Below, piece after piece: positions 1 through 35,769 of a stretch of 64,000 bases of DNA; the first letter of the stretch is position 1, and each line of letters opens with the position of its first letter. Location of the stretch: NCBI GenBank assembly GCA_016742275.1, contig JACVCD010000019.1, positions 1-64,000 on the forward strand. The letters run 5' to 3'. The DNA comes from Gemmatimonadaceae bacterium (lineage in GTDB: Bacteria > Gemmatimonadota > Gemmatimonadetes > Gemmatimonadales > Gemmatimonadaceae). Made by a program: the position numbers and the translations under genes. The notes beneath the pieces are model-generated. The model ran no database searches, was not told where the DNA came from, and saw only the letters and a program-made list of their open reading frames with translations.

Positions 1-2813
1 AAAAAAAAAATGGTCGCATCGTTACCCAGGCGCGCATTGAACCCCATCGATTCCGAGAACGAGATGAAGCCTGGCAGTGACGTCGCATCGCGGGCATAGA
101 GAGGAAACTCCACCACACGAAGCGAGCGATGCTGATATGGTCCGAAATTTTCCGTGTAGTAACCCAGTGACTGCCCGGCGGCCTGCATCATGCGATCGAT
201 GTTTTCACGATGCTCTGGATGATGGTAGATCTCGATTGCAACGCCATTCTGCTCGCTCGACTTCACCGCATACCGGGCGGACACGAAGCCGAAGTAGTGC
301 GTGATGGGGATGTCGGTCCGGTAGTGAAAGTATCGTCGACCGTTCGCTGCCCAGCTCCGCAATAGTTCGCCAGAAGTGATTGCGGTCTGATCGAGATCGG
401 TGGAGACGATCATGTCAAAGGCCACTCGATCGGCGTCTGATGCGCGCGGTGACCGACTCCTGGCTGCCGCGTCATCTGGATCGGCCAATCGGGGAAGCGG
501 ATCGAGGCCATGTTCCTTTCGCTCATCGGAGATCACGAGCTGGCGTTGCGGCTCGAATCCAATCACGGGAAAAAAATCACGCTTGGTGAAGTACGTTCCG
601 TTCTCGACCACCGTAACACTCGCGCCATTGTTGACAAATCCTTCGTTCTCTACGACGAGATCAAAGCCAAGCTCCAGCGAATCATTGGGCGCAAGTGGCG
701 TATGCAGTTGCAGAATGTGATATCCGAGCGTGTCGTCCGCGTGCACGATGTCGTGACTCGGTAGGCCCAGCCGATTCACGTGCACGCCAACGGGAATACT
801 CACGTGGATATCACGTTGCGGTTGGGTGGACTGATTCTGCAGCCGATATGAACCGCGAATGTTTACACGCCGGTCGCGTGGGTAGATGTCCACCTCGCCA
901 CGGACAGCGACCACGCGAGGCAAATTGATATTCTGGTACCGCACATAGCGCGTTTCGTACAACGCACGACGTGCCGCCATCGTGGTGTTGGGAACATACT
1001 CATTGAGAACATTGGTATTGTAGAAAATCCATGCGCCCGCCATGGTGGCGCCCAGTACCGATGTCACAGTTACCGCTCGGGTGAGTCCATGAAAACGTGT
1101 ACGCGCTTCACTCAATCGTGATCGCCAGCTGTCATCCGTGCCGCGTCTCCAGAACGCAACCGATACACCGATCAACATCGTGGCGACCAATCCCCAGTAC
1201 AGGGCGTACCAGGAAAATGGCTGCAGGAAATGACCAAAACCGTTGAGATCGGAATACGGTGTGGGCGGCAGGCTTGCATAGCGATAGAGGTGATGCTCGA
1301 AGCCAAACTCTTCCAACAGGTCCCAGGCGACAATGAAGAGCACCACGAGCCCGTAACCGGCAATCCTGTTGCGCGCCACGACATGAAATGCGGAGGACAG
1401 CACCATCATTAATACGGGATATGCCGCGGCGATGAGCATGCCCTGCACGTACAATCCGAATTCGAGATGCGCATATCCCTGCAGGAGTTGAAAGGCGATC
1501 AATGCGACCACACCCGCCAGCTGAAACACGGCGATTGCGAACAGCAACGCCACCAGCTTCGCACCAAAAAGAACACCATTGGGTGTTGGCAGCGCATCGA
1601 CCATCTCGTGCACATCGAGAGTGCGATCGCGCCAGACCAACTCCCCGCTGAACAGTACGGCCGCCAGTAGCAGGACTTTTGCGAATCCGCCTTGCATGGC
1701 CTCGATCATGAGATGTGTTCGAGGATAGACCGGCATGCCGAAGATGTTGCCAGCAGAACTAGCGGTCTCGATCAGCACGATCAATCCGAGAAGCAACATG
1801 CCGAGGAATGGCAGACTGCCAAGTACACCAAGTACCTCGCGCCACGTTTGCCGCAGAAACTGGATACGCACCGTGTGCCATGAGAAGGTGCGCTGCGGGG
1901 AATGCGCATGGCTTGGTCGTACGATCTGCGGCTCCGACGGCTCTTCAACTACTGGCGAGGTCGACCTACGCGCAGGAGAGGGTTCCTGGGCAGGGACAAA
2001 GGTCGCGCTGGCGATGCCGAATGCTGACAAGCCGAGTCCGAGCCACAACACTCTGTTCCAGAGCAGCATCCCACCAAGTGGCGGGATCGCGGTGTTCAAC
2101 TCCGCCGTCGTCCAGTGTCGGAGCGTATCGCCAAGTGCCGTGACACCGAATGGGTCGAGCATTTGACCAATCCACGGTGACACGAGTTGCGAGGAGGAGA
2201 GACCCGCAACCGCACTGAGTGCGACGAATGCCACGATGCCGACATAGGTGGCGATCGTACTGCGAGTCCAGATGGCAAGAGCAAAGAACGCGCCGCCCAG
2301 CGCAAGGAGTGTGGGTAGGATCAACACGCCAAACGCAAAGGCATAGGGCGCCAAGCGAAATGGTCCGACGCGCTCCGGGGCAATGTCTGGCATGCTGGTG
2401 CCGATCGCGAACGCGACAGCACCGACCAGATAGGGCAGTAGGCACGCCACAATGGCGCCGGCAAACCGGCCAATCAGATAGTCGAATCGCGAGACGGGTT
2501 TCGAAAAGAACAGTTCAGACGTGCGCCGGTCGAAGTCCCGCATCGCGGCGCTCACAACAAATGCCGCCATGAGAAAGAGCACGACGTGAATCCATGTCAT
2601 TAGATGCTCCAGGACGACCGCAGGAGCATTGAGGAGCAACTTGCCTGTGGCTCCACCACGCCCCTGACCCGATCCATCGAGGAACAACAACACGCTCAGG
2701 AAGAACGTGACCAGATAGAACAGTGGCTGGCGAAGGTGATGCCGGATTTCAAAGCCGAAAATGGGTAGCAAGCTGCTGCCCTGGCGAATGCTACGCGGCA
2801 TTGGATCGGTCAT
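1..2813 (-). CDS. ABC-2 permease / M1-aminopeptidase-like membrane protein (partial)
   Basis: An uninterrupted frame of 937 codons runs from an ATG at 2813 to the left window edge, so the 3' end is missing. The first 250 residues carry several hydrophobic segments typical of an ABC-2 permease, followed after a Pro-rich linker by a second hydrophobic block (about 320-560). From about residue 600 the protein becomes a soluble domain like the N-terminal beta region of M1 peptidases. The zinc-binding HEXXH would lie in the missing part, so catalytic competence cannot be judged. The start overlaps the end of the ATPase gene by 23 bp, implying translational coupling; the two should form one transporter. 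Known family members of this fused type are usually 1,100-1,200 residues; their substrate is not established. Confidence 0.85.
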   Translation of the reverse strand, partial: MTDPMPRSIRQGSSLLPIFGFEIRHHLRQPLFYLVTFFLSVLLFLDGSGQGRGGATGKLLLNAPAVVLEHLMTWIHVVLFLMAAFVVSAAMRDFDRRTSELFFSKPVSRFDYLIGRFAGAIVACLLPYLVGAVAFAIGTSMPDIAPERVGPFRLAPYAFAFGVLILPTLLALGGAFFALAIWTRSTIATYVGIVAFVALSAVAGLSSSQLVSPWIGQMLDPFGVTALGDTLRHWTTAELNTAIPPLGGMLLWNRVLWLGLGLSAFGIASATFVPAQEPSPARRSTSPVVEEPSEPQIVRPSHAHSPQRTFSWHTVRIQFLRQTWREVLGVLGSLPFLGMLLLGLIVLIETASSAGNIFGMPVYPRTHLMIEAMQGGFAKVLLLAAVLFSGELVWRDRTLDVHEMVDALPTPNGVLFGAKLVALLFAIAVFQLAGVVALIAFQLLQGYAHLEFGLYVQGMLIAAAYPVLMMVLSSAFHVVARNRIAGYGLVVLFIVAWDLLEEFGFEHHLYRYASLPPTPYSDLNGFGHFLQPFSWYALYWGLVATMLIGVSVAFWRRGTDDSWRSRLSEARTRFHGLTRAVTVTSVLGATMAGAWIFYNTNVLNEYVPNTTMAARRALYETRYVRYQNINLPRVVAVRGEVDIYPRDRRVNIRGSYRLQNQSTQPQRDIHVSIPVGVHVNRLGLPSHDIVHADDTLGYHILQLHTPLAPNDSLELGFDLVVENEGFVNNGASVTVVENGTYFTKRDFFPVIGFEPQRQLVISDERKEHGLDPLPRLADPDDAAARSRSPRASDADRVAFDMIVSTDLDQTAITSGELLRSWAANGRRYFHYRTDIPITHYFGFVSARYAVKSSEQNGVAIEIYHHPEHRENIDRMMQAAGQSLGYYTENFGPYQHRSLRVVEFPLYARDATSLPGFISFSESMGFNARLGNDATIFF

Positions 2814-3669
2814 TGAGCGCAGCAAAGTAGACATGCTCAAGGTCTGCCGCCGCCGGTTCAAATCCCGCGCCGGGCAATTCAGCGCTCCGCACATGCAATA
2901 CAACGCGCCCACCCACGAGACGCGTGGAGAGCACATCCATGCGCTCCCGATAGTGCGCCACCTCGGCACGATCGATCAGCTTGCGCCAGACCTGGCCATC
3001 GAGTCCGGCGATGAGCACAGCAGGTTCTCCCTGCTGCAGAACCCGCCCCTTCGCGAGAATGGCCATACGACTGCACAACTCACGCACATCTTCCACGATA
3101 TGCGTGGACAGAATCACCACCGCCGTCTCACCGATTTCGCACAGCAGATCGTGAAAACGATTGCGCTCCTCGGGGTCGAGGCCAGCTGTCGGTTCGTCGA
3201 CAATGATCAGTTCTGGCTCACCAAGCAGCGCCTGCGCGATGCCGAAGCGTCGGCGCATCCCGCCAGAGTAGGTGCCGAGCTTGCGTTTGCGCACCTCATA
3301 CAGATTGGTCAGGTGCAGTAGACGCTCAACGGCTTCGCGGCGTTCACTGCGCGAGGTCAATCCCCTCAGAACAGCAAAATGATCGAGCATCACTTCGGCT
3401 GAGGTGCCCGGATAGACGCCGGGATCCTGCGGGAGATAGCCGAGGATCTGACGTGCCTCGTGTTTGTTCTCGAGCACATTGATATCGCCAAAGCGGATCG
3501 AGCCGGAGTCCGCGTCCTGTAGTGTGGCGATGGTGCGCATCAATGTGGACTTGCCCGCTCCATTGGGACCCAGCAGGCCGAACATGCCTCGCGGAATATC
3601 GAGCGTCACACCGTTCAGGGCCTGCACGCCATTGGCATAGCGCTTCGAGAGATTCTCGAGCCTGAGCAT
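2791..3669 (-). CDS. ABC transporter ATP-binding protein
   Basis: A 292-residue ATPase that would energise the adjacent permease. Walker A GPNGAGKST lies at 34-42, the signature SGGMRR near 135, Walker B LIIVDE at about 154-159, and the switch-His region follows (STHIVEDV). The C-terminal tail after residue 215 resembles that of CcmA/NatA-type ATPases of drug or lipid exporters. The ATG at 3669 is chosen because GGAGG lies just upstream, inside the end of the regulator gene; the regulator stop is one base away. A longer reading to 3888 has no domain similarity and covers the regulator gene in another frame. Confidence 0.93.
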   Translation of the reverse strand: MLRLENLSKRYANGVQALNGVTLDIPRGMFGLLGPNGAGKSTLMRTIATLQDADSGSIRFGDINVLENKHEARQILGYLPQDPGVYPGTSAEVMLDHFAVLRGLTSRSERREAVERLLHLTNLYEVRKRKLGTYSGGMRRRFGIAQALLGEPELIIVDEPTAGLDPEERNRFHDLLCEIGETAVVILSTHIVEDVRELCSRMAILAKGRVLQQGEPAVLIAGLDGQVWRKLIDRAEVAHYRERMDVLSTRLVGGRVVLHVRSAELPGAGFEPAAADLEHVYFAALNDRSNAA

Positions 3670-3670
3670 G

Positions 3671-4567
3671 TTACGCCTCCGCGTGATCGAGCGATTTCTC
3701 GAACCAGAAGTGCGCGTAGCGCTCGTCGTTGAACGCGCTGACTTCGCGGTAGCCGCTCTGTCGGTACAGTGCCTGGGCCTCGCGCAAGCTGCGATTCGTT
3801 TCCAGTCGGACGCGCGTTGCGCCAAGTCGTCCCGTTTCGTGCTCGAGTGCGTGAAGCAGCCGTCGTCCAATGCCGGAACCACGCACATCCCGTGACACCC
3901 ACATGCGCTTGATGTAGCCGACGTCGGCGTCGGTGAGCCTCACCGCACCACAGCCCACTGGTCGGCCGTCGAGTCGTGCGACAACAAACGCACCACGAGG
4001 AGCGCGCAGATCATCTGCGCCAAGCGGGATCGACGTCGTGACATCAAAGCCATCATCGAACCGCTCATTCAGTTCCGCGAAGTACTGGGCGAGACACCAT
4101 TTGGCGTCCGCACTGTCAGGGTCTTCGACCGCAATACGCGTGAACGCGAGGTTGAGCAGTTTCTCGACTTCTGCCATCGCCAGAACGAGACGTGACTGCT
4201 CGCTTTCGCTCAGCGGTTCCAGCGTACCCTCGGCGAACTGATCGCCGAGGCGGTCGAGTTCCTGAAACTCTTTAAGGCCAGCGTCAGTCAGGACAGCACG
4301 GCGACTTCGCAGATCGGATTCAAGCGGGACCACCTCGACGAGGCCTTCTGACTCGAGGGATCGCAGCATGCGACTGAGATAGCCCGAGTCGAGATCGAGG
4401 CGGGCGCGGAGTTCGCGAACGTCGGCGCCCTCTCGATTGATCTCGAAGAGCAATCGGGAGAGTGCGATGGGCCGCTGCCGACCCAGGAAACGATCCGTTA
4501 GTACCCCAACCCGAAGGGTCAGGGCGCGATAGAAGCTCCGGACGGTCGGAATAGGGTCGCCTGTCAT
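3671..4567 (-). CDS. MarR-type HTH regulator fused to GNAT acetyltransferase
   Basis: This 298-residue protein has a MarR-like winged helix at about 25-140 (LSRMLRSLESEGLVE recognition-helix region, then a wing rich in Arg) and a GNAT domain at about 150-295 with the acetyl-CoA loop motif RGSGIGRRLL. Such MarR/GNAT fusions are an established architecture; the acetylated substrate is unknown. It is first in an operon with the ABC ATPase and permease/M1 genes, so it probably senses a compound and controls export or processing of it (inference). The start ATG has no ribosome-binding site and lies inside a perfect palindrome, suggesting a leaderless, autoregulated mRNA. Confidence 0.9.
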   Translation of the reverse strand: MTGDPIPTVRSFYRALTLRVGVLTDRFLGRQRPIALSRLLFEINREGADVRELRARLDLDSGYLSRMLRSLESEGLVEVVPLESDLRSRRAVLTDAGLKEFQELDRLGDQFAEGTLEPLSESEQSRLVLAMAEVEKLLNLAFTRIAVEDPDSADAKWCLAQYFAELNERFDDGFDVTTSIPLGADDLRAPRGAFVVARLDGRPVGCGAVRLTDADVGYIKRMWVSRDVRGSGIGRRLLHALEHETGRLGATRVRLETNRSLREAQALYRQSGYREVSAFNDERYAHFWFEKSLDHAEA

Positions 4568-4602
4568 TTATCTGACTTTAGTCAGATAAATGACACCGTC
4601 AA
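4562..4602 (-). promoter_or_regulatory. Leaderless promoter with 15-bp-arm palindromic operator over the start codon
   Basis: TGTCATTTATCTGAC at 4562-4576 and its exact complement at 4581-4595 flank a 4-bp TTTA spacer. Read on the minus strand, a -35-like TTGACG (4602-4597), a 16-bp spacer and a -10-like TAAAGT (4580-4575) are followed after 7 bp by the ATG at 4567, so transcription would begin at the start codon. The palindrome covers the -10 box and the ATG, which fits repression by the MarR-like product it precedes. It could additionally act as a hairpin at the end of the upstream ankyrin gene (stop at 4599), but it has no U-tract. Confidence 0.7.
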
Positions 4603-16827: not shown

Positions 16828-17742
16828 ATGATCGATCCTCTCTCAGATGTCATCGCGATGCTGCAGCCACGTGCCGTCCACACGCGGCGCATCAGTGGTG
16901 CTGGCCGATGGGCTGTGGCGTACGGCGAGTTCGGCCATCCGAGTTTTTGCATCGTGTTGGATGGCAGTTGCCGTTTGGCCGTGAACGGGCATCGCGCGCT
17001 CACCATTCAGGCCGGCGACTTTGTGCTGATGCCGGCCACTCCGGGGTTTACAATTTCCGGTTTTGATTCCGTGCGCGCGGTGCGCATGGACCCGCAGGCG
17101 AGCGCGGCGCGCGTTGGCGAGATGCGCTATGGCACACCACGCGGAAAGGCTGACGTGATCATGCTGGGTGGCTGGTTCGAATTCGAGTCACCCAATGCGG
17201 CGTTGCTGGTATCGCTGTTGCCCTCGCTGGTCCACCTGCGGGACTCCGAACGATTGGCCATGCTGGTCCGCCTCATCGGCGACGAGTCTGCGGAGCGTCT
17301 GGCGGGGCGGGAGCTGATGCTGACACGTCTTGTGGAAGCACTACTCATCGAAGCCCTGCGTGCCAAACCGGATGAGGAGGCGCCGCCAGGTCTTCTGCGT
17401 GGGCTGGCGGATGCGCAGTTGGCGCGTGCGCTGCGTCAGATGCATTCGCACATCGCGCGCTCATGGACGGTAGCTCAACTGGCTTCTGCGGCTGCGCTCT
17501 CTCGCTCGGCGTTCTATGAGCGATTCACGGCCATGGTCGGTGTCCCGCCCATGGAGTATCTCACGCAGTGGCGCATGACAGTGGCGCGCGACCTGCTGCG
17601 CCACCAGGAACTCGATGTGTCCGAGGTGGCGCAGCGGGTGGGTTATGGCTCGACCAGTGCGTTCAGCGTGGCATTCAGTCGATGTGTTGGACAGTCACCC
17701 AGTCGCTATGCAGCGGGCAGGCAAGCAGATCAGCCGAACTGA
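16828..17742 (+). CDS. AraC-family transcriptional regulator with cupin domain
   Basis: 304 residues. A cupin-type sensor domain (about 1-170, with FCIVLDGSCRLAVNGHRALTIQAGDFVLMPATPGF) precedes a double helix-turn-helix (about 200-300: WTVAQLASAAALSRSAFYERFTAMVG and DVSEVAQRVGYGSTSAFSVAFSRCVGQSPSRY). It belongs to the cupin_6-AraC group, usually activators of an adjacent oxidoreductase gene. AGAGAG precedes the ATG at 16828. Divergent from the SDR, which is its likely target. Its last 13 bp overlap the convergent next gene. Confidence 0.92.
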   Translation: MIDPLSDVIAMLQPRAVHTRRISGAGRWAVAYGEFGHPSFCIVLDGSCRLAVNGHRALTIQAGDFVLMPATPGFTISGFDSVRAVRMDPQASAARVGEMRYGTPRGKADVIMLGGWFEFESPNAALLVSLLPSLVHLRDSERLAMLVRLIGDESAERLAGRELMLTRLVEALLIEALRAKPDEEAPPGLLRGLADAQLARALRQMHSHIARSWTVAQLASAAALSRSAFYERFTAMVGVPPMEYLTQWRMTVARDLLRHQELDVSEVAQRVGYGSTSAFSVAFSRCVGQSPSRYAAGRQADQPN

Positions 17743-18371
17743 TACTGTACGTCCTGCGCGGCCTTCTTGTCTTCTCCCATCATGTAGCTGCGGCAGAAGA
17801 TACAGTGGAACTCACGAAGCGTCGGCATCTCCTTTCTGGCAGCGCTGATGGCCGTCTTGAGAGGAATGCCGAACAGAATGTTCCAGCGATTGCGCACGGT
17901 GAGAATGCTGCCGCCCCAGTCATCCATAAGCGTTTCAAGGGCACGCCCTTTCCCGCTGGCAGAAGCTTTCATCAGCATACTGAACTTCTTTTCGCGGATG
18001 GTATCGCGTCCCGAGACGGTGTCGGCAACCTGCTTGTAGGTCTCCAGGGTCTGTTTGCCGTCACTACCGGCGTGCGCCCCCTGATACTTGGAGAGCAGGT
18101 AGTTGAGACATTGTTGACCGCCGGTCACGACTTCGCGCGGCCTGGCGTGAGAGCTGTCACGGGCAAAATTCCCGATGCCCGGATCGAGCAGCGCTGCGCC
18201 GTGCTCGCCGTAAAAAATGATGCGCACACCATCAGGCACGGTGAAGGTGCTGTTCTCCTTGATATAGCCGCCGTGTGCGCTGATCATGCAGTCGCTCGAA
18301 TTGGTCCGCGACTTGAACAGGTAGAGACTTGAGCTGATTTCTGTGGCACCGCTGGGAAGGGGCTTCGCCAT
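17730..18371 (-). CDS. Hypothetical protein, possible Stv-type adhesin/effector-like domain
   Basis: 213 residues, no signal peptide or membrane segment. It begins with a segment (SRTNSSDCMISAHGGYI) containing His-Gly-Gly, then GVRIIFYGEHGAALLDPGI, and ends with FHCIFCRSY. The HGG and EHG motifs recall a domain described as putative adhesin Stv; I give this only as a resemblance. GGAG precedes the ATG at 18371. The gene stands between a convergent AraC gene and a terminator, so it is a single-gene unit. Confidence 0.5.
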   Translation of the reverse strand: MAKPLPSGATEISSSLYLFKSRTNSSDCMISAHGGYIKENSTFTVPDGVRIIFYGEHGAALLDPGIGNFARDSSHARPREVVTGGQQCLNYLLSKYQGAHAGSDGKQTLETYKQVADTVSGRDTIREKKFSMLMKASASGKGRALETLMDDWGGSILTVRNRWNILFGIPLKTAISAARKEMPTLREFHCIFCRSYMMGEDKKAAQDVQYQFG

Positions 18372-18422
18372 GCAGATCTCCAGGGAGGGGTGAGATGCCA
18401 CAATCTTACTCTCCAACGACGA

Positions 18423-18456
18423 ACTCCGCATTTGCCATGCGGCGCAAATGCGGAGT
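18423..18456 (-). terminator. 13-bp perfect hairpin after the SRPBCC gene
   Basis: ACTCCGCATTTGC (18423-18435) pairs perfectly with 18444-18456 around an 8-nt loop. It begins 17 bp after the SRPBCC stop and ends before the next minus-strand gene. The U-tract is poor (TCGTCGTT), so it may act as an mRNA 3' stabiliser as well as a terminator. Confidence 0.6.
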
Positions 18457-19464: not shown

Positions 19465-19821
19465 CTATTTCCTGGTGGGCGGCTTGGGATCAGCCAGCAC
19501 ATCGTCGAGCTGACTGAAACGGGAGATCCAGATTTGTTCGAGCTTGAACAACAGGGCGCGCGCTTGTGCGATGCGTTCAGGATTGCTTCGCACGATGCGT
19601 TCCCGTCCACGTGATTCCTTGCTCACGAGACCGGCCTCCTCGAGCATGGCGACATGCTTCTGCACGGCCGCGAACGACATGTCGTAGCGCGCGGCGAGTG
19701 TGGAAACGGACGCGGGTTCACCGGCCAGGAGCCGGGTCACGATGTCGCGCCGTGTGGCGTCAGCGAGGGCCCGGAAGAGCCGGTCGAGCTCGTCGTCGGT
19801 GAGTGGAGAACGTACAACCAT
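19465..19821 (-). CDS. ArsR-family transcriptional regulator
   Basis: 118 residues with an ArsR winged helix (about 5-90: LFRALADATRRDIVTRLLAGEPASVSTLAARYDMSFAAVQKHVAMLEEAGLV). It lacks the CxC metal site of arsenic sensors, as expected for the SRPBCC-linked subgroup. The ATG at 19821 is preferred to one 12 codons upstream because it stands exactly where a -35/-10 pair would start transcription; it also lies in the centre of a palindrome. It is the first gene of a two-gene operon with the SRPBCC protein. Confidence 0.9.
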   Translation of the reverse strand: MVVRSPLTDDELDRLFRALADATRRDIVTRLLAGEPASVSTLAARYDMSFAAVQKHVAMLEEAGLVSKESRGRERIVRSNPERIAQARALLFKLEQIWISRFSQLDDVLADPKPPTRK

Positions 19822-19857
19822 GTGGTTGTATATATGGGTAACCGGATTTTCGCGCAA
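19813..19857 (-). promoter_or_regulatory. Leaderless promoter with palindromic operator centred on the ArsR start codon
   Basis: On the minus strand TTGCGC (19857-19852), a 17-bp spacer, TATATA (19834-19829) and 7 bp lead directly to ATG at 19821, leaving no room for a leader. TACAACCA (19813-19820) and TGGTTGTA (19823-19830) form a palindrome with a 2-bp spacer that overlaps the ATG and the end of the -10 box, a position suited to autorepression by the ArsR product. Confidence 0.7.
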
Positions 19858-35736: not shown

Positions 35737-35769
35737 AACTGCGCGTGGTGCGTCAGACCACGCGCAGTT
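35737..35769 (+). terminator. 13-bp perfect hairpin after the S9 peptidase
   Basis: AACTGCGCGTGGT (35737-35749) pairs perfectly with 35757-35769 around a 7-nt loop, 14 bp after the peptidase stop. The tract after the stem is GCAATT, poor in U, so termination strength is uncertain; it also faces the convergent cupredoxin gene. Confidence 0.65.

Follow-up and report, generated by a model that had tools for sequence, protein, structure and literature searches.

A predicted operator that holds the −10 hexamer and abuts the start codon of a MarR-GNAT gene is conserved with its protein family and probably serves a leaderless autorepressor

In Actinobacteria, Deinococcus-Thermus, and other groups, leaderless genes are described as marked by a TANNNT hexamer adjoining the open reading frame, ∼6 to 7 nt before the start codon, and as occurring among genes of many kinds (PMC3160421; PMC12340547). 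In the survey of Zheng et al., leaderless genes were detected in 2 of 117 genomes of Alphaproteobacteria and 15 of 239 of Gammaproteobacteria (PMC3160421); the string "Gemmatimon" does not occur in the main text of that 2011 paper. MarR regulators are described as binding palindromes of 16 to 20 bp that often overlap the −10 and −35 elements (PMC5401885). The MarR-GNAT gene analyzed here has the TANNNT hexamer of known leaderless genes but differs from them in that this −10-like hexamer is the center of a conserved predicted operator. As a predicted autorepressor gene with a palindrome over promoter-like elements, it also resembles CrtR of Corynebacterium, which is presented as a winged-helix repressor with palindromes over promoter elements and negative autoregulation, and whose gene is itself said to be transcribed leaderless (PMC5401885). 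In the account given there, however, nothing is said of the CrtR site extending over the start codon of its own gene, whereas the predicted MarR-GNAT operator core ends 3 to 5 nt before the start codon in 29 of 31 close homologues. Neither leaderless promoters nor MarR autorepression is novel; what seems to be new is that operator, −10, and start codon are merged, and conserved in that form, in a single gene that travels. Our literature search, with most subscription journals outside its scope, found no paper that dealt with a MarR-GNAT operator in its title or the start of its abstract.

The window, a 64-kb stretch of DNA from a Gemmatimonadaceae bacterium, carries this gene and its start region on the minus strand (Table 1). 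RpoB places this genome probably in the Gemmatimonadota: over two pieces it was 71% and 65% identical to the protein of a Gemmatimonadetes MAG (the source of L028), against 44 to 59% for the main pieces in five other genomes (one short piece at 70%), and two of the eight genomes compared had no match. The MarR-GNAT inverted repeat has 16-nt arms, 100% complementary, around a 2-nt AA/TT center, and it reaches from −28 through codon 2. The original prediction had placed a perfect palindrome with 15-bp arms over the −10 and the ATG; the placement was correct, but the arms are 16 bp long plus the AA/TT center. The promoter string predicted with it, TTGACG-16-TAAAGT-7-ATG, is present on the minus strand at 4602 to 4565 and was the only match to this search pattern in the whole window. 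The expectation from shuffled windows was 0.21 matches, with a match in 19 of 100 shuffles, and the promoter string by itself is therefore not decisive. The second-longest perfect repeats in the window (spacer of at most 8 nt) had 13-bp arms, and the largest arm in 10 Markov-1 sequences of window length was 9 to 11; arm length, together with conservation among homologues, rules out a chance origin of the palindrome. One point against a plain MarR operator is its length, since a single MarR dimer does not usually require a perfect repeat of 34 bp. The TAAAGT hexamer with its 7-nt gap corresponds to the TANNNT at ∼12 nt before the start codon by which leaderless genes are recognized, and no Shine-Dalgarno-like 4-mer lies 4 to 18 nt upstream of the ATG. 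The start codon is fixed because a TAA directly precedes the ATG and codons 1 to 20 contain no other ATG, GTG, or TTG. On the plus strand, the ATG at 4590 opens a frame of only eight codons, which excludes a second gene there.

Table 1. Coordinates of the MarR-GNAT locus and of the ArsR-type gene in the window
Feature	Position	Strand	Remarks
ABC-2 type permease frame, presumed third gene	3-2795	minus	cut by contig start
ABC transporter ATPase, presumed second operon gene	2791-3669	minus	likely ATG one base past the MarR-GNAT stop
MarR-GNAT fusion gene, 298 aa	3671-4567	minus	MarR_2 at 38-88, Acetyltransf_1 at 183-273
Inverted repeat, predicted MarR-GNAT operator	4562-4595	minus	covers −10, start codon, and codon 2
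Operator core TCTGACTAAAGTCAGA	4571-4586	minus	conserved among close homologues
−10-like TAAAGT	4575-4580	minus	operator center, 7 nt before ATG
−35-like TTGACG	4597-4602	minus	16 nt before −10; overlaps stop codon of the upstream ankyrin gene
ArsR-type gene	19465-19821	minus	HTH_5/HTH_20; TACAACCA-CA-TGGTTGTA (19813-19830) over ATG

Pfam models supported both halves of the fusion protein, with MarR_2 at 32.9 bits (cutoff 27), MarR at 29.6 bits (cutoff 24.6), and Acetyltransf_1 at 65.5 bits (cutoff 20.7). The MarR half also had weak PDB matches, among them the repressor MexR (E = 4e-4), which is grouped with the MarR-family autorepressors. An ankyrin gene on the same strand ends 31 nt upstream of the MarR-GNAT gene, and MarR-GNAT and the ABC transporter genes behind it are presumed to form one operon. 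The ABC ATPase had no tblastn match at the loci of the other close homologues, in stretches reaching ∼1.5 to 2 kb past the gene. By eye, the later part of the ABC-2 permease frame resembles a metallopeptidase. Two inverted repeats with 13-bp arms were seen elsewhere in the window: one at 35737 to 35769, in a terminator-like position between two convergent predicted genes, and one with an 8-nt center at 18423 to 18456, over the predicted start of a minus-strand frame (17730 to 18431) that matches the putative adhesin Stv domain.

To follow the operator across the protein family, we assembled 31 close homologues including the window's gene (41 to 56% identical). Those from genome contigs came from Acidobacteria, Pseudaminobacter, and Demequina, with further ones from the window's phylum; those from plasmid records came from Nonomuraea, Streptomyces, Sodalis, Tsukamurella, Methylobacterium, Palleronia, Paracoccus, and Haematobacter. 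Fourteen plasmid records were examined among 40 listed of 246 matched, yielding 11 close and 3 distant homologues (H14, H16, and H18); H3 and H4, with the same figures as H2, and the partial match H21 were left out. Matches confined to the GNAT half (L024 to L028 and L039 to L041) and other partial matches were likewise outside the operator survey. A CTGAC-N4-GTCAG-like core scoring at least 8/10 was found in 30 of the 31 close homologues, exact in 25 and near-exact in 5, and the operator-bearing members include Acidobacteria, Actinomycetota, Alphaproteobacteria, and Gammaproteobacteria. The short distance from core to start held in both parts of the set (24/26 in the first and 5/5 of those added), with the start set to a neighboring start codon, differing from the BLAST-derived position, in 10 of the 26 rows. 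The exceptions were L035, which has no recognizable core, and L066, whose operator lies 21 nt before the annotated start; among the proteobacterial members, six of seven had the operator 3 to 5 nt from the start. Shine-Dalgarno-like 4-mers were absent in 25 of 26 close members. The Haematobacter plasmid homologue (L067) apparently has two tandem operator-like sites before its ATG, as judged by eye.

A MarR-GNAT gene of this close type was present in 3 of 25 genomes of the window's genus. In the tree, the window's protein and the Acidobacteria sequence formed a group (94/75, short of the starred support level), apart from the proteins of two congeners, which grouped with proteobacterial plasmid genes; with modest support, this topology fits horizontal transfer. 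The pattern CTGACTNNNGTCAG-N3-5-ATG occurred in 16 of 395 genomes of the phylum, 12 times at MarR-GNAT starts and 4 times elsewhere, and the reversed control pattern gave 8 matches in the scan of the same 395 genomes. Nine of 17 carrier genomes contained the longer TCTGACTNNNGTCAGA, each at a single place, which was the MarR-GNAT start in 8 and a different place in 1 (G022); in the window's genome that place is the predicted operator. Because exact matches to CTGACTNNNGTCAG and TCTGACTNNNGTCAGA mostly fall at MarR-GNAT starts, the regulator would appear to have about one site, its own. A larger regulon was rejected on the same exact matches, since this genome has a single further copy of CTGACTNNNGTCAG, located within an open frame of 805 codons. 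Because close relatives in several phyla share it, the compact layout of operator and start seems to move together with the gene and not to be a peculiarity of this organism.

More distant relatives suggest that the start-abutting geometry is special to the close clade. These "clade B" MarR-GNAT fusions are ∼30% identical, with both regions aligning, and include a second copy in this genome; their recognition helix is similar (mostly LDSGY[LV]SR or LDAGYLSR). A motif of related type, TTG[AC]C-N3-G[GT]CAA, was found in 17 of 21 loci with a loose pattern searched without a control. It differs from the operator of the close clade in position, lying not at the start codon but ∼36 to 104 nt before the point aligned with residue 1, which mostly leaves room for a leader. 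Three distant loci (L044, L054, and L068) have two copies of a TTGC-type motif 21 to 22 nt apart.

Since the operator core is symmetric, we asked in which direction its −10-like string points, using 29 cores (L002 and L035 left out). TANNNT was present on the sense strand in 22 of the 29 and on the antisense strand in none. At center position 2, an A was found on the sense strand only in 21 members and on the antisense strand only in 1 (sign test, 1.1e-5, which overstates independence because the homologues are related). Of the 29 members, 11 had a −35 match of at least 4/6 at a spacing of 16 to 18 on the gene's side and none had one on the opposite side, a comparison limited because that opposite flank is coding sequence. 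This strand bias of the core center is the strongest sequence evidence for a −10 pointing at the ATG. One alternative is an ordinary leadered gene whose transcription starts farther upstream, with the −10-like string an accident of the operator core, because the palindrome dictates T...GT. Consistent with this, both terminal T's of the hexamer are set by the core in most members and mainly the A at position 2 is free, and TANNNT is missing from 7 of the 29 cores (L032, L064, L065, L066, L067, L091, and L092). It is at the free position, however, that the A keeps to the gene's strand, and both the one-sided −35 matches and the general lack of Shine-Dalgarno-like sequences also speak against a leader. 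We therefore regard an ordinary leadered gene as unlikely. The leaderless reading is weakest in the proteobacterial members, because TANNNT is absent in four of these seven and present in three.

Outer arms beyond the core were evaluated in 30 rows (L035 dropped) against a null of re-dealt flanks that ignores kinship. Complementarity at flank positions 1 to 11 reached 163/330 against a mean of 133.9 (0 of 5,000 shuffles as high), and the excess came mostly from positions 1 to 6: positions 7 to 11 alone did not stand out (51/150 versus 44.5; 597 of 5,000 shuffles), nor did positions 12 to 22 (85/330 versus 86.4). Contiguous outer runs of at least 6 were found in 5 of 30 rows (null mean, 0.7; P = 5e-5) and runs of at least 8 in 4 of 30 (null mean, 0.2; 0 of 20,000 shuffles). 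The outer arm mirrored the start codon in 8 of 30 rows (null mean, 3.3; 71 of 20,000 shuffles). Long outer arms thus occur in few members, and most lack them. The long-arm rows, among which L110, with a run broken by mismatches, was counted by eye, are scattered on the tree, requiring five changes for six rows and clustering no more than shuffled labels. Coevolution of the protein with both half-sites would explain the nearest flank positions; for the far positions, possible causes are extended binding and template-switch copying with the core as seed, and selection or template-switch mutation could have produced the mirroring of the start codon in scattered members. Quasipalindrome correction is a known mutation route.

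The long arms also raise the possibility that the repeat works as RNA, with a hairpin in transcripts reading through from the ankyrin gene hiding the start codon and leaving the leaderless mRNA as the sole translated form. Folding of the read-through strand gave −38.4 kcal/mol (z = −3.8) and placed the AUG within the stem, and leaderless initiation has been proposed by Zheng et al. 2011 as possibly protecting genes from leakage of upstream operons (PMC3160421). An upstream gene or open frame is codirectional in three of the six long-arm members (L001, L060, and L091), but it is divergent in two others (L062 and L092), and none was obtained for L110. Conversely, L065 and L067 have close codirectional genes but short outer symmetry, and a stable fold is a by-product of any long palindrome. 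Given this inconsistent orientation of upstream genes across members, we rejected an RNA hairpin gate as the cause of the long arms, and the RNA reading as a whole seems quite improbable.

The original prediction had also pointed to the ArsR-type gene in the same window and proposed a general promoter architecture in this organism for self-regulated genes. We evaluated this in the window plus 20 further stretches, together 462 kb of this genome, in which a simple caller found 315 genes; the first ATG could be used in 277 of them. TANNNT preceded the first ATG at gaps of 5, 6, and 7 nt in 9, 19, and 6 genes, respectively (34/277 in total, with ∼3 expected), and at the remaining 37 gaps in the range 0 to 39 it occurred 39 times in total. 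Because of this excess, leaderless-type starts look common in this genome, the excess over background amounting to ∼11% of genes with the crude caller used. Shine-Dalgarno-like 4-mers preceded 20% of first ATGs and 11% of out-of-frame ATGs. −35-like hexamers of at least 4/6 accompanied 11 of the 34 leaderless-type starts and 39 of the 243 others; they were mostly weak in the 34, and that of MarR-GNAT matched at 5/6. A TetR gene of this genome (L082:257-913) has a leaderless-type start with a full −35, TTGACA-17-TACCAT-7-ATG. Among the 34, only MarR-GNAT had a perfect repeat of at least 9 bp over its start; one other gene had 13 bp with one mismatch and another had 8 bp, and the 243 genes outside the 34 gave one repeat score of 13 and a next best of 8. 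A Pfam scan of 20 of the 34 genes, the first 10 chosen among shorter ones, found a DNA-binding regulator domain in 3 (response regulator, TetR, and AraC types); the others were a histidine kinase, a PAS protein, enzymes, transporters, and other proteins, one of them without a match. Leaderless-type starts are thus not tied to self-regulation, since only 1 of the 34 has such a repeat. What survives of the proposed architecture is its general part, the −10-like hexamers at gaps of 5 to 7 nt before ATGs; the link to self-regulated genes is not supported.

The ArsR gene itself tells a similar story. The shared 7-nt gap that had been claimed for it can be read as TATATA-N7-ATG, but 3 of the 9 sites of the ArsR palindrome read as TATCAT with a gap of 8. 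These nine sites come from a scan for the ArsR palindrome ACAACCANATGGTTGT, which was found in 9 of 200 phylum genomes, this one and other genera among them; the reversed control had no match in the 200. Judged by eye, the ATG opens a frame resembling the same ArsR protein at eight of the sites, and at the ninth it does not. Because ACAACCANATGGTTGT recurs at ArsR-like starts, the ArsR design too seems to be attached to its protein family. We then weighed a host-wide promoter design for self-regulated genes, in which a leaderless promoter with a palindrome over the ATG arose separately in the MarR and ArsR genes. It draws some support from the abundance of leaderless-type starts here, from two unrelated regulators with a palindrome over the ATG in one 64-kb window, and from the statement of Zheng et al. 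that the transcription category is more likely to contain leaderless genes (PMC3160421). However, the remaining 33 leaderless-type genes lack a perfect repeat of at least 9 bp, 17 of the 20 scanned lack a DNA-binding regulator domain, and each palindrome is conserved together with its protein family elsewhere, which for MarR-GNAT includes other phyla. With a single palindrome among the 34 and few regulators among the scanned genes, we rejected the organism-wide design as originally stated and consider a separate host-driven origin very unlikely. It is scarcely credible that the repeat is an intrinsic terminator of the ankyrin gene: a strong hairpin does start 3 nt past the ankyrin stop codon, but the defining T run is absent on both strands (GGCGACCC follows on the minus and CCGTCAAG on the plus strand), and the core is conserved at the starts of homologues with other upstream neighbors.

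We conclude that the MarR-GNAT gene probably encodes an autorepressor. Its operator would include the −10 and lie directly against the start codon, the mRNA would be leaderless, and the whole would be carried as one unit. The palindrome would be the operator of the protein encoded by the same gene, and its core would supply the −10 hexamer of that gene's own promoter. Because the core holds the −10 and ends 3 to 5 nt upstream of the start codon, RNA polymerase is predicted to start at, or within 1 to 2 bases of, the A of the ATG, and the product of such a start would be a leaderless mRNA. A MarR dimer bound there would turn transcription off by occupying the −10, the start point, and the first codons; release by a ligand, or perhaps by acetyl-CoA or a substrate of the GNAT half, would allow expression of the MarR-GNAT gene and, in this genome, of the ABC transporter behind it. 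Protein binding, the leaderless transcript, the operon, and the inducer in this scheme are all deduced from DNA sequence. The unit of operator, promoter, and start would be inherited and transferred with the gene.

More tentatively, and with considerable doubt about the two parts taken together, promoter, operator, and start codon may form a portable unit of ∼45 bp that is independent of the Shine-Dalgarno context of the host and enables moves across phyla, while the outer arms may have been re-perfected over the start, by selection or by an operator-seeded template switch, with read-through mRNAs hiding the AUG and the leaderless mRNA exposing it. If this were true, a self-repressing gene could enter even Alphaproteobacteria and Gammaproteobacteria, in which leaderless genes are rarely detected. 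For the family, our analysis provides a specific predicted operator for a MarR-GNAT clade, in which one short sequence apparently does three jobs, as repressor site, as −10, and as frame for the start codon. This arrangement is kept from the window's phylum to Streptomyces and Sodalis, and it offers a clear-cut way to test whether leaderless starts aid regulators in surviving transfer between hosts that differ in their translation signals.
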